Shown one piece after another: positions 1,017-62,642 of a stretch of DNA of 64,000 nt. Within the stretch, counting starts at the first letter, position 1; every line of letters starts with the position of its first letter. The DNA is from Tepidisphaeraceae bacterium (lineage in GTDB: Bacteria; Planctomycetota; Phycisphaerae; Tepidisphaerales; Tepidisphaeraceae): positions 124,001 to 188,000 of the forward strand of contig DASYHQ010000033.1 in NCBI GenBank assembly GCA_035998445.1. Direction: 5' to 3'. Both the position numbers and the translations under genes were made by a program. The notes below the pieces were generated by a model. That model made no database searches and was not told the DNA's origin. It saw only the letters and a list, made by a program, of their open reading frames with translations.

Positions 1017-1154
1017 CGTGGCATGGGCGTCTCGCCCATGCGTGTGGACTGGAACGGAAAGCGTGATTTATGGCCGACCGCGCCGGCCATGCAGGCCGGC
1101 ACAAATGAGATCACTTGGCCCTATGACAAGCATGGGCGAGACGCCCATGCCACG
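1017..1154. repeat. Family B inverted repeat with a nested palindrome
   Basis: Arms at 1017-1044 and 1130-1154 both contain GCATGGGCG and CGCCCATGC and are inverted relative to each other; each arm is also a hairpin by itself. Between them lies a separate small palindrome, GCCGGCC-ATGCA-GGCCGGC, at 1082-1100. No coding signal is seen here. Confidence 0.75.
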
Positions 1155-7345: not shown

Positions 7346-7980
7346 TCTGTAGGACAGGCATTCCTGCCTGTCTCTCCCCCCGTATTCTCTTAGTCTCTCT
7401 TCTGTGGCACAGGCATTCTTGCCTGTGTCTCTTCCTGTCTTTTCCTGCTCTCGGTGGGACGGACATTCTTGTCTGTCTCTCTTTGCGCTCTCCACTTGCG
7501 CACCAGAAGACGGCGCGAAGGTCACGAAGGGCAGACGCGAAGGCCGCCGAGAAGACAAACGCCAATCGCGGCGGCGGTTTGGGTAAGGTAACGCGCGAAA
7601 CCGTGCACCATTTTGCACCATTTTGCACCATCGGGTGATCGAGCCAGTCGCCGATAGGGCCAACGCGTTGCGTATTCAGTTGTCAAAGAGCAGGCTATCC
7701 ATCTCTACGCCCGCGCTGCGCAGTTGAGGTGGATTCAGCGCAACGCGCTCAGCTTTTCTTCGCGTCCGCCTTCGCGTCCTTCGCGCCTTCGCGTCTCTGC
7801 CTCTTCGTCATCGCGACTCCGCCGCGTGGCAGGCAAGAATGTCTGTCCCACCAAGGAAGAGACACAGGCAAGAATGCCTGTGCCACAGAAGAGAGGCAGA
7901 ATACGGGGGGAGATGAAGACGGGGGGAGAGACAGGCAGGAATGCCTGTCCTACAGAAGAGGGAGACGCATGCCGGGAAAC
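7345..7980. repeat. Composite inverted-repeat region (family D) without genes
   Basis: The left block 7345-7490 holds ACAGGCATTCCTGCCTGTC, ACAGGCATTCTTGCCTGTG and GGACATTCTTGTCTGTC modules. The right block 7830-7972 repeats them inverted and in reverse order. Inner arms with GCGAAGGTCACGAAGG (about 7510-7555) pair with CCTTCGCGTCCTTCGCGCC near 7767-7790. Between them are short TTTTGCACCA direct repeats at 7610-7630. No plausible gene is seen. A related block is at 31719-31862. Confidence 0.8.
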
Positions 7981-12601: not shown

Positions 12602-12722
12602 CGGTCCCTCTCCCATGTACTCATGGGAGAGGCTAGGTGAGGGTGATTTCGATCTGCTGACGGTTTTCGAAAGAACGAAATCACCCTCACCTAGCCTCTC
12701 CCGGAGTACCGGGAGAGGGACC
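12602..12722. repeat. Family C nested inverted repeat, copy 1
   Basis: The outer parts are hairpins of their own (CTCTCCCATGTACTCATGGG and CTCTCCCGGAGTACCGGGAG). The inner arms GAGGCTAGGTGAGGGTGATT and GAAATCACCCTCACCTAGCC are inverted around a 25-bp centre. It lies between the convergent kinase and prfC ends and could end both transcripts. Confidence 0.88.
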
Positions 12723-27215: not shown

Positions 27216-27412
27216 TCCGGTCCCTCTCCCGGTACTCCGGGAGAGGCTAGGTGAGGGTGCATTTCAAGCCGCAGACGGCCCACGAATGGGCACGAATCAA
27301 CACGATAAAAAGGCGCCACACCGCGCCGCTCATATTCGTGTTGATTCGTGCCCATTCGTGGGCAACGCTGTGATCGAACCTCTCCCATTTGTACCTGGGA
27401 GAGGGATCGGAC
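27216..27412. repeat. Repeats of families C and I
   Basis: A half copy of family C lies at 27216-27263 (CTCTCCCGGTACTCCGGGAG and GGCTAGGTGAGGGTG) and a degenerate outer hairpin at 27376-27412. Between them is family I: GCCCACGAATGGGCACGAAT (27279-27308 arm) inverted at 27333-27363. The whole looks like one composite in which family I sits inside a family C element. Confidence 0.75.
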
Positions 27413-31718: not shown

Positions 31719-31862
31719 AGACGGGGGGAGAGGCGGGCAAGAAGGCCCGTGCCGCCGGGAAAGACGAAGATGAAAGAGACACAGGTATGAGTGCCTGTGT
31801 CACGAAAGACGAAGGCGGGGGGAGAGACAGGCAGGAATGCCTGTCCTACAGAAGAAATACAG
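31719..31862. repeat. Family D repeat block next to the IS
   Basis: Modules GACGGGGGGAGAG, ACACAGGTATGAGTGCCTGT and GACAGGCAGGAATGCCTGTC followed by CTACAGAAG match the right-hand block at 7830-7972 in order and orientation. It lies between the IS end and the sdhB stop and may contain the sdhB terminator. Confidence 0.75.
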
Positions 31863-36609: not shown

Positions 36610-36930
36610 CATTTCGGTCTGGAAAAGATCTCTTGAAGGTCTCTCGAAATCTTTTGAGGGTTTGAAAAGAATCATCCGGTCCGCAAAAGATCTTCTGCGA
36701 CTCTCCGGAAATTCTAGAAGGTTGCCAGAGATCTTTTGTGACTCTCCAGAAATTCTCAAAGGTTGCCAGAAATCTTTTGTGACTCTCTAGAAATTCGAGA
36801 AAGTCGCCAGAGATCTTTTGCGGCTCTGAAGAAATTCGAGAAGGCCGCCAGATCTTTTGCGGGTCTAAATTGTTCCTGGAAGGTCGCAAAAGATCTTTTG
36901 CGAGTCGGTGAAGATCTTTTCACGGTGACA
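36610..36930. repeat. 41-bp degenerate tandem repeat array
   Basis: Units with the core AGATCTTTTGTGACTCTCCA then GAAATTC and AGGTTGCC start at 36683, 36724, 36765, 36806 and 36847, exactly 41 bp apart, with decayed units before and after (a 39-bp step to 36886). Forty-one is not a multiple of three, so the array is not a coding repeat. It abuts the RAYT remnant. Confidence 0.88.
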
Positions 36931-37147
36931 GAAACCGTCGGGACGCCGCGGCCAAGGATGGACGGGCGGAGCCGGGCAGCAGCACAATCGCATCGACCTC
37001 GAACGGCCTGGCCCCCGGACACCGCCCGATCGCCCACCGCAATCGCGCCCGGGCCGCCTCGCCGCCAAACAGCGGTTCCCGCCTCCCGGTCACGATCGTG
37101 ACGAAGAACGTCGCCCCGGCCACCACCGCCCGCCGATAATATGGCAT
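36920..37147 (-). pseudogene. REP-associated tyrosine transposase (RAYT) N-terminal remnant
   Basis: Read from ATG 37147: MPYYRRAVVAGATFFVTIVT, then GRREPLFGGEAARARLRWAI and RPFEVDAIVLLP, matching the N-terminal third of RAYT/IS200-like Y1 transposases. In intact members the next residues are the HUH motif (DHLH) followed much later by the catalytic Tyr. Here the match ends exactly at LLP and gives way to unrelated residues and a stop at the edge of the 41-bp array, so the catalytic part is lost. Upstream is an inverted repeat (37211-37328), the type of element RAYTs act on. Confidence 0.75.
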
Positions 37148-37210
37148 CGCCCGGCCCATCCGCGTCAACAATCGTCGTGTTCATGCGAGGGTCGCCCCCG
37201 CCCCCAACCC

Positions 37211-37328
37211 GTAGGGCGGGATGAAGTCCCGCGCCGCCCGCCGACCCGTTGCCAGACCCGCCACCGCGGGACGCAATCCCGCCGCGACCCGGGTGGTACG
37301 CCCCCGGCGGGATTCCATCCCGCCCTAC
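37211..37328. repeat. Family H inverted repeat upstream of the RAYT remnant
   Basis: GTAGGGCGGGATGAAGTCCC (37211 on) is inverted as GGGATTCCATCCCGCCCTAC (37309-37328). Between them CCACCGCGGGACGCAATCCC gives an extra partial palindrome. A scrap resembling GGTAGGGCGAGCACCGCCCA is at 38317-38336. Confidence 0.8.
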
Positions 37329-37331
37329 AAG

Positions 37332-38247
37332 CTAAAACGGGACCGATTGAGCCGTATCTAGTTGTGACGACGATGCAATTGCCGCGATTTCGAGGTAGCG
37401 AGTCTTTCCTGACTTGGAAAGTCGTTCTCGAGCATACACGTTCGTCGGTTCCCCTGTGTGCAGCGCAAGGGTATAGGGATTTCGAACAGCCTTGACAAGT
37501 TTGTCCGAGACTTTGCAAACATGTTCGTTTCCCGAAGCGTAAGTCGGGGGGCCGACGATGATCAGACGTCCCCAGCCGTTCTTGCGACTAAGTCCGAGGA
37601 AGCGGATTGACATGGGCACAAGCTTATCATCCTCCTTAGGAAGGTAATGCGCAGCTGGGACTGTCAGTACTACAGCGTCGGGTCGGCGAATCAAAGTAGG
37701 TTCGGTCGAATCGGAACGAAGTTCAATCAGACTAATGTCTTCTACCGCAATTTGAGTCGCATCTCGGGCCGACTCATCTAGCATCTCCGCGAACAATTGA
37801 AGATCTTCGTCGGAGGCTTTCGTTAGGCCAGTCTCACTCTCCAACTGTCGCAGTTGTTGCTTGATGTTGTCGAAGGTGTTTCGCTGAGCTTTAGCTGTCA
37901 AAAGCCGTTTTATCAGTAGACCCGTTAGCCCAACGAGAGTGAGCTTAACACCGTCCCAAATCGCATTCGTTGCAAGGGCCTTCGTATAGCCAGTTCAGAT
38001 CGGCAACGATGGAACCAGTACGTAAACGGCTAACCTGAACACGAATAACTGGTCCGGCTGACGGTTGTTGTGTAGTGAACTTATCAAACGCCACCGCATT
38101 CGCTACCAAGTTCAAATATGCTGACCATCCGGTCAGTGAGCTAGCGAACAATTCTAGGTCGGTTGTGCCGTTTTCCGCTGTCCCACCACGGAACTCGATG
38201 GTTAGAGCGCTTCGGAAATCGGCATCATCTGCGTCTCCTTCCGCCAT
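37332..38247 (-). pseudogene. Unknown protein gene broken by a frameshift
   Basis: The first part from ATG 38247 reads FRSALTIEFRGGTAENGTTD, LELFASSLTGWSAYLNLVAN and VSRLRTGSIVADLNWLYE. Near 37985 that frame runs into a short end (CNECDLGRC), while the next frame continues smoothly with KALATNAIWDGVKLTLVGLT and GLLIKRLLTAKAQRNTFDNI, then a 190-residue part rich in charged residues (RPDAVVLTVPAAHYLPKEDD). One extra base would explain it; a programmed shift is possible. The join holds a membrane helix. The region is visibly richer in A+T than its neighbours, which suggests transfer. I do not recognise the family. Confidence 0.7.
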
Positions 38248-38344
38248 GTTCTGAGCCCACCTAGTTGTCAATTGCCACTGTCAGTCTGTCAATGCCAGCT
38301 TCACTTCTAAAGTCTGGTAGGGCGAGCACCGCCCACCTGTTGCG

Positions 38345-56642: not shown

Positions 56643-56760
56643 CGTCCCCTCTCCCGGTACTCCGGGAGAGGGTTAGGGTGAGGGTGATTTCGCGCTGCTG
56701 GCGACTTCAGAAAGAACAGAATGCATCCTCACCTATCCTCTCCCGGAGTACCGGGAGAGC
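56643..56760. repeat. Family C nested inverted repeat, copy 3
   Basis: Left hairpin CCCCTCTCCCGGTACTCCGG (56646 on), inner arm GGTTAGGGTGAGGGTGATTT, and the inverted right side TCCTCACCTATCCTCTCCCG with the GGAGTACCGGGAGA hairpin to 56760. The centre, CTGGCGACTTCAGAAAGAAC, differs from other copies. It separates the kinase and sigma-54 activator genes. Confidence 0.85.
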
Positions 56761-60469: not shown

Positions 60470-60596
60470 CGGTCCCTCTCCCATGTACCCATGGGAGAGG
60501 TTAGGTGAGGGTGATTTGTTCTGCCTTGATCGTCAGCAGTTCGAAATCACCCTCACCCAGCCTCTCCCGGCGTACCGGGAGAGGGGCCGGAGGTGC
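60470..60596. repeat. Family C nested inverted repeat, copy 4
   Basis: Left hairpin CTCTCCCATGTACCCATGGG, arm GGTTAGGTGAGGGTGATTTG, centre with CTTGATCGTCAGCAGTTCGA, then AATCACCCTCACCCAGCCTC and a right hairpin CCCGGCGTACCGGGAGAGGG. It lies directly after cysS and before the MnmE-like gene. Confidence 0.85.
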
Positions 60597-62518: not shown

Positions 62519-62642
62519 TCCGGTCCCTCTCCCGGTACTCCGGGAGAGGCTAGGTGAGGGTGATTTGTTCCTGCCGAGCCGTCTGCAGTTGGAAATCACC
62601 CTCACCTGGCCTCTCCAAAGAGTGCATGGGAGAGGGACCGGA
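62519..62642. repeat. Family C nested inverted repeat, copy 5
   Basis: Left hairpin CTCTCCCGGTACTCCGGGAG, arm GGCTAGGTGAGGGTGATTTG, centre, then GGAAATCACCCTCACCTGGC and a degenerate right hairpin with CTCTCCAAAGAGTGCATGGG. It follows the ppk2 gene by about 20 bp. Confidence 0.82.

Follow-up and report, generated by a model that had tools for sequence, protein, structure and literature searches.

A probable dead 5′ remnant of a REP-associated tyrosine transposase gene in Tepidisphaeraceae, and RAYT coding regions in frame inside host genes across the same class

RAYTs, REPtrons, the GTAG-headed REPs of Planctomycetes and REPs that lie inside genes are already known (PMC2817692; PMC3733652; PMC6006769; these papers, and PMC8266576 below, are cited for the part of the text that was available). 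The TnpA-REP enzyme reads a GTAG head and its hairpin in single-stranded DNA and cuts at an adjacent dinucleotide; its tyrosine holds the cut 5′ end and can join it elsewhere (PMC8266576). Planctomycetes are among the named hosts of GTAG REPs in PMC3733652, and the GTAG REPs inside genes described there are in-frame, stop-free palindromes, often in DNA repair genes. In-frame REPs also occur inside tnpA-REP genes of subclass 2.4 (PMC6006769). The same paper sets unusually long RAYT proteins aside as gene fusions or annotation errors, and it raises the question of how genomes come to retain RAYT genes, and why.

The locus described here lies in a 64,000-nucleotide stretch of a Tepidisphaeraceae genome (the window, part of contig C33) and follows this pattern in several respects. 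The protein family is that of RAYT/TnpA-REP (PMC2817692; PMC6006769; NCBIfam NF047646; structure 4er8), with the HUH motif and the tyrosine present in the relatives. As in the RAYT/REPtron systems of the cited text, GTAG hairpins stand on both flanks of relatives, and one genome holds several REP families, each with its gene. The locus and its genome differ from the known RAYTs in that the window copy is truncated before the HUH motif, that the REPs of its family have very few exact copies, and that some other RAYTs of this genome and of its class lie in frame inside host genes.

The remnant is contained in an 83-aa ORF on the minus strand, running from 37171 to 36920, with an ATG at 37147 and RAYT homology down to 36971. 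From this ATG it reads MPYYRRAVVAGATFFVTIVTGRREPLF...RPFEVDAIVLLP and then departs from the RAYT family; the N-terminal core of the family (YRR..GGTFFxTxVT...FxxxAxVLLP) is present. Pfam Y1_Tnp was tried and rejected as the sole RAYT detector: it misses both the window fragment and the gene on contig C41, and a full-length relative falls under its cut-off. Since Pfam alone fails to detect the fragment, a profile built from 14 relatives was used instead, which matches the solved E. coli TnpA-REP (4er8) with E 1.6e-56. This profile covers the remnant over its first 58 of 187 positions, with a domain E of 7e-17 in a six-frame search of an 838-kb sample, and with 72.9 bits and E 8e-20 when the whole genome was searched. 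The NCBIfam model NF047646 (‘REP-associated tyrosine transposase’) also matches, at profile positions 2–56 of 146 with E 2.5e-8; the score of 33.9 bits against a cut-off of 80 is a shortfall expected for a partial gene. The original prediction of a broken RAYT N-terminal part is thereby borne out by both profiles.

The break also falls where it had been placed, right at the expected position of the HUH motif. In the alignment of relatives the full-length RAYTs read LLPDHLH, whereas the window reads LLP followed by GS; by both the alignment and the profile, homology stops at LLP and the HUH motif is absent from the fragment. Matches to the remnant ORF were found in 15 of the 61 genomes searched (its own and 60 relatives), and all non-self matches stop by query residue 68. 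A profile search gave no convincing 3′ RAYT half with the catalytic tyrosine domain elsewhere in the window, and tblastn rows for the lost half in the window (E 0.025 to 0.83) were disregarded. Because the HUH motif is missing, the fragment is the remnant of a RAYT rather than a RAYT; because no 3′ part survives in the window, the gene is taken to be dead; and, having lost its HUH motif, its catalytic tyrosine and its downstream REP, the remnant cannot cut DNA. With a probability of roughly 0.88, we read the feature as what is left of a REPtron: the defunct 5′ end of a RAYT gene together with the REP cluster upstream of it. Taken alone, the remnant belongs to a known family and is a pseudogene of an ordinary kind.

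Table 1. Features of the window, with positions counted from its first letter, and palindrome families of the genome with the Y1/HUH genes beside them.
Feature	Position	Strand	Remark
F4 REPIN	1019..1152	.	family adjoins RAYT nested in dinG, contig C58
F3 REP	7349..7372	+	family adjoins RAYT fused behind thiE, contig C64
F3 REP	7930..7953	-	
F3 REP	31826..31849	-	
41-nt tandem array by broken end	36623..36926	.	unique in genome
5′ RAYT gene remnant, no HUH, no Tyr	36971..37147	-	profile positions 1-58/187
F1-type REP, GTAG head + hairpin	37211..37233	+	
REP cluster middle hairpin	37265..37283	.	
F1-type REP, GTAG head + hairpin	37306..37328	-	1 of 6 exact genome copies
F1			C28 and window remnant, within 600 bases
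F2			C41, also beside C9, within 600 bases
F3			C64, within 600 bases
F4			C58, within 600 bases
F5			C56, within 600 bases
F6			C9, within 600 bases
F7			C18, within 600 bases
F8			C53, also at cut end of C41 gene, within 600 bases

A palindrome had been noted upstream of the broken gene, and it is indeed there, as part of a cluster of three hairpins (37211-37328; Table 1) that starts 64 bases upstream of the remnant start codon. The outer two carry a GTAG head directly before the hairpin and are inverted to each other, and the 125-nt strand of the cluster folds better than 200 of 200 shuffles (z -5.2). At the other end of the remnant, the downstream REP usual for RAYT genes is missing along with the 3′ half; the 41-nt tandem array stands there instead, its units partly palindromic and AGATCTTTTGCGA-like. 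Approximately 45 bases separate the broken end from the array, and both this stretch and the array are found nowhere else in the genome. The array was considered as a second REP family and rejected, the genome search having placed it at the window site only. Beyond the REP cluster, at 37332-38271, there are two adjoining minus-strand frames with matches to DUF7947 (below cut-off) and DUF7946, which together resemble a single gene split by a frameshift, next to the dead RAYT.

The F1 pattern (GTAGGG[CT]GGGAT-N0-8-ATCCC[AG]CC) occurs at 6 exact places in the 5.84-Mb genome, compared with no match of the backwards control pattern. Two of the six copies flank the C28 RAYT on either side, one adjoins the window remnant, and three lie away from any RAYT seen; when up to 2 mismatches are allowed, the 838-kb sample holds 9 matches, of which the C28 gene and the remnant account for 6. 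For a comparison of flanks, 80 relatives were fetched from public genomes, of which 74 have at least 100 nt on both sides, and 124 control windows were taken from 62 of the same loci. With a distance limit of 350 nt, a GTAG hairpin lies near 64 of the 74 related RAYTs and in 4 of the 124 control windows; split by side, 55 loci have the hairpin upstream and 46 have it downstream, 37 having it on either flank. A string of at least 14 nt is common to both RAYT flanks in 55/74 loci, as against 0/62 controls. The REP stems at the related RAYTs differ between genomes while the GTAG head is constant, and this combination of constant head and variable stems is also that of the published REPtrons, in the available text of PMC2817692. 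The link of the remnant to a particular palindrome type confirms the RAYT–REP rule in a little-studied class.

Other readings of the locus have to be set against these observations. The short ORF could be a working small protein, a RAYT N-terminus lacking HUH that does not cut but binds REPs or regulates RAYTs; its frame is open from the ATG through 58 family residues and the upstream REP cluster has been kept. However, the tail after LLP has no relatives and runs into unique sequence and the array, the neighbouring frame also looks broken, and there is no short-form relative among 23 matches to the remnant ORF, all of which makes such a protein highly improbable. The truncation could instead be an assembly artefact at the 41-nt array, with the living gene whole. 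Repeats do trouble assembly, and two RAYTs of the same type (C28 and C41) lie near contig ends; but a contig of 240 kb encloses the remnant, unique sequence separates it from the array, and the genome holds no unpaired 3′ half of the same type, the C41 and C28 genes having 5′ parts of their own, so that we consider an artefact very unlikely. As for the upstream palindrome, an unrelated terminator or chance repeat, rather than a REP of the window RAYT, would fit the small size of F1 and its three copies away from any RAYT. It is nevertheless an extremely unlikely explanation, given that the related C28 RAYT is flanked on either side by palindromes of the GTAGGG[CT]GGGAT type and that GTAG hairpins accompany related RAYTs in far greater proportion than controls. 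The reading that we retain is a RAYT gene reduced to a dead 5′ end; the intact ancestor that it implies at the same site is a predicted one, none of the available relatives being close enough for a synteny comparison.

Family, protein and profile searches of the genome gave ten Y1/HUH genes or fragments, on contigs C9, C18, C28, C32, C33 (the window), C41, C53, C56, C58 and C64. Weak protein hits on C61 and C17 (E 0.018 and 0.325, with internal stops) were not refound by the profile and were dropped as chance. RAYTs of the window type number three: C28, C41 and the remnant itself. No fully intact F1-type RAYT was found in the genome. In C28, which alone among the F1-type genes has both HUH and Tyr, the opening dozen codons are in a different frame from the remainder, and the C41 gene is spread over two frames and lacks its 3′ end. 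On its 3′ side this broken window-type gene (L011:1495-1900) ends at a REP that belongs to a different family, AAAGGGGTCGGGAGTC.

The original prediction called for a genome-wide look at intact RAYTs, each to be matched to the palindromes that flank it. RAYTs with an HUH motif exist, and families adjoin particular ones: eight families were counted within 600 bases of genes, and the resulting table is nearly diagonal (Table 1), although the families were chosen after inspecting the flanks, so that the pairing is descriptive and not an independent test. The pairing of gene and family is not strictly one to one, with cross-overs of F2 and F8 and with the C32 gene, to which none of the eight families counted is assigned, as an exception. 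No Y1 gene adjoins families F9–F12 in the 838-kb sample, where these families have 73, 61, 38 and 26 hits. The C9 and C53 genes, which are of the HWH type, are flanked by the repeats AAAAGGGGACATCC and AAAGGGGTCGGGAGTC, which resemble the GGGGWSAS-type terminal repeats of the TIRYT/TIRtron (PMC3733652, available part); the consensus is not fully matched here, as the last base of the C9 repeat deviates.

The genome had been described as full of REP-like repeats, and the counts agree with this. GTAG directly before hairpins is enriched 32-fold in the 838-kb sample (72/1064), F4 has 261 exact copies genome-wide, and F3 has 187 copies with up to two mismatches allowed; the backwards control patterns of F3 and F4 gave 0 matches each in the whole genome. 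Among the places listed for F4, most are pairs about 111 nt apart, and the copies are nearly uniform in sequence and spacing.

The suggestion that RAYTs seeded the repeats of the window is partly supported. Palindromes whose families have a neighbouring RAYT are F1 (two REPs), F3 (six, three of them exact) and F4 (two, one of them a REPIN); those with no such neighbour, as far as seen, are the F9 type (ten), F10 (one), F11 (one) and a CACGGGC..GCCCGTG type (four). The window palindromes are of mixed origin. Only 6 exact F1 copies are present genome-wide, so the remnant gene did not seed most of the window repeats. The commonest window palindrome (CCTCTCCC..GGGAGAGG, 10 hairpins) belongs to a family that no Y1 gene adjoins within the 838-kb sample. 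This family is found in the window at 12607-12718, 27223-27404, 56648-56760, 60475-60584 and 62526-62635. A separate tandem array, with a 21-nt period, lies at 1241-1565.

The RAYT beside F4, on contig C58, is inside the frame of a dinG/yoaA-type helicase; the whole forms one 927-aa ORF without stops (L005/L172, C58:609-3197). A family scan of this ORF gives helicase matches on both sides with Y1_Tnp between them, the latter over the Pfam cut-off, while NF047646 scores 72.1 bits against its cut-off of 80. One REP type, abundant in the genome, occupies both flanks and is read as linkers, MGVSPM upstream and HGRDAHAT downstream. The RAYT beside F3, on contig C64, extends the thiE frame (553 aa, L073:7715-9373, minus strand), with the REP read as the linker SVGQAFLPVSP between thiE and RAYT; a thiE–RAYT fusion is also present in a second genus (L250).

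Nesting in dinG, at the same place and in one frame, is found in 6 of 26 genomes of the family, namely this one and five from other genera, whose proteins are 60-66% identical to it over the full length. In most of the others the two helicase halves adjoin without a RAYT; one genome (G003) has the RAYT–helicase on a contig piece that lacks the second helicase half, and 3 of the 26 have no match. The REPs that flank the nested RAYT vary by genome, but a GT-headed hairpin stays, in frame.

Across the class, 397 genomes were searched, and RAYT matches turned up in frames that greatly exceed the length of a RAYT; five candidates were scored per genome, which makes every tally of nested RAYTs a minimum. 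With open-frame length as a proxy for nesting, 124 rows were tallied, 6 of which are matches to the helicase flank only; by frame length, the remaining 118 comprise at least 50 of 1000 aa or more, 17 of 700-999 aa, 17 of 450-699 aa and 34 shorter. At least 60 genomes of the class have a RAYT in a frame of 700 aa or more. The hosts identified by family scans are valS, leuS, ileS, gcvP, etfB, a DUF1156 methylase and thiE, and further type ISP restriction enzymes, a CcrM-like methylase and a DISARM-like helicase protein. Host homology is based on family scans for 19 ORFs (those on C58 and C64, another nine and eight more), on alignment for six ORFs and on the order of the pieces for 19 genomes; L236, L238-L241, L243, L245, L246 and L248 (leuS, ileS, valS) were named by eye from the flanking residues. 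Nested loci across the class include L209, L211, L212, L215-L228 and L233-L250, among others.

In valS the RAYT has more than one insertion site in the gene body, and one before the C-terminal arm. Among the 19 genomes chosen for a RAYT in a valS-like frame, all 19 have the RAYT bordered on either side by valS pieces that share one frame, and none of the 19 has a second locus over the ValS cut-off. Most of the genomes compared are draft assemblies; at least two nested cases are in single-contig genomes, G013 (dinG) and G263 (valS). A draw of 392 genomes across the phylum, which included this genome and some others of the class, gave a RAYT match in 57; most of these RAYT genes are free-standing, but frames of 1000 aa or more that contain a RAYT occur in no fewer than eight genomes from beyond the class.

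We give an even chance to the wider proposal that in RAYTs of this class a whole REPtron sits in frame in conserved host genes (dinG/yoaA, valS, leuS, ileS and others), is translated as an inserted domain, is locked in place and expressed by the host, and feeds hundreds of REPINs. The nested RAYTs, in this genome and in the class, could also be inert passengers, harmless in-frame insertions that are no longer active. Among the six dinG cases the RAYT part is 43-57% identical and thus less conserved than the helicase parts (65-79%), which speaks for passengers, and RAYTs are known to evolve fast (PMC2817692, available part). On the other hand, the columns of HUH (MPNHVH), W and tyrosine (Y171/N175) are invariant across the six genera, and an approximate dN/dS of the RAYT segment is 0.08-0.47 in 16 of the 24 listed pairs where computable, with synonymous sites near saturation in most pairs. 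The REPs that adjoin the nested RAYTs are, moreover, high-copy families, F4 with its nearly uniform copies among them. Inert passengers are accordingly an unlikely, though still serious, explanation.

By analogy with the published biochemistry of RAYTs, the intact enzyme of the window would once have bound a GTAG-headed hairpin as a single strand and cut beside it through a 5′-phosphotyrosine, helping REPs to copy or move. For the nested RAYTs, a REPtron may have inserted into a loop of the host protein that tolerates it, or at the protein's end; the frame would have been kept because the REPs are stop-free in the frame used and could serve as linkers. The nested RAYT would now be carried and expressed by the host gene and translated within the host protein, and its loss would damage that gene. 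If true, this would explain in concrete terms why RAYTs are maintained in single copy; RAYTs locked in essential genes such as valS would be a simple, testable answer to the question of RAYT maintenance. Nested RAYTs would also account for some of the palindromes that these genomes carry, and many proteins that one would annotate as ValS, LeuS, IleS or DinG in these organisms would carry a hidden nuclease-like domain.

These arrangements differ from the described cases of REPs in genes. In the available text of PMC3733652 and PMC6006769 short palindromes alone are found in genes, whereas here a whole RAYT coding region with two REPs is in the host frame. The literature searched, from which subscription journals were largely missing, yielded no description of a whole RAYT nested in host genes or of an HUH–helicase fusion of this kind; what came up was either the REP papers already known or work on unrelated subjects. 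Inteins and homing elements, for example those related to yeast HO (PMC7282813, available part), likewise place an enzyme-coding element inside an essential gene, where loss is costly. They differ from the nested RAYTs, in which no splicing domain is seen (Pfam and NCBIfam scans of the nested ORFs gave no Hint domain) and in which an HUH/Y1 nuclease flanked by REPs takes the place of a homing endonuclease. Relaxases and Helitrons join an HUH nuclease and a 5′-3′ helicase in one protein. The dinG-nested form does the same with an XPD-type helicase, but the helicase family is a different one and the nuclease is nested in the middle of the protein rather than at its end. The HUH nuclease and the helicase of this predicted polypeptide might even act together. 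At two of the valS loci, L227 and L228, the RAYT segments are much closer at synonymous sites (pS 0.21) than the surrounding valS parts (0.71), which, in this one pair, left out of the argument above, hints at movement of the RAYT between valS genes of different genera.
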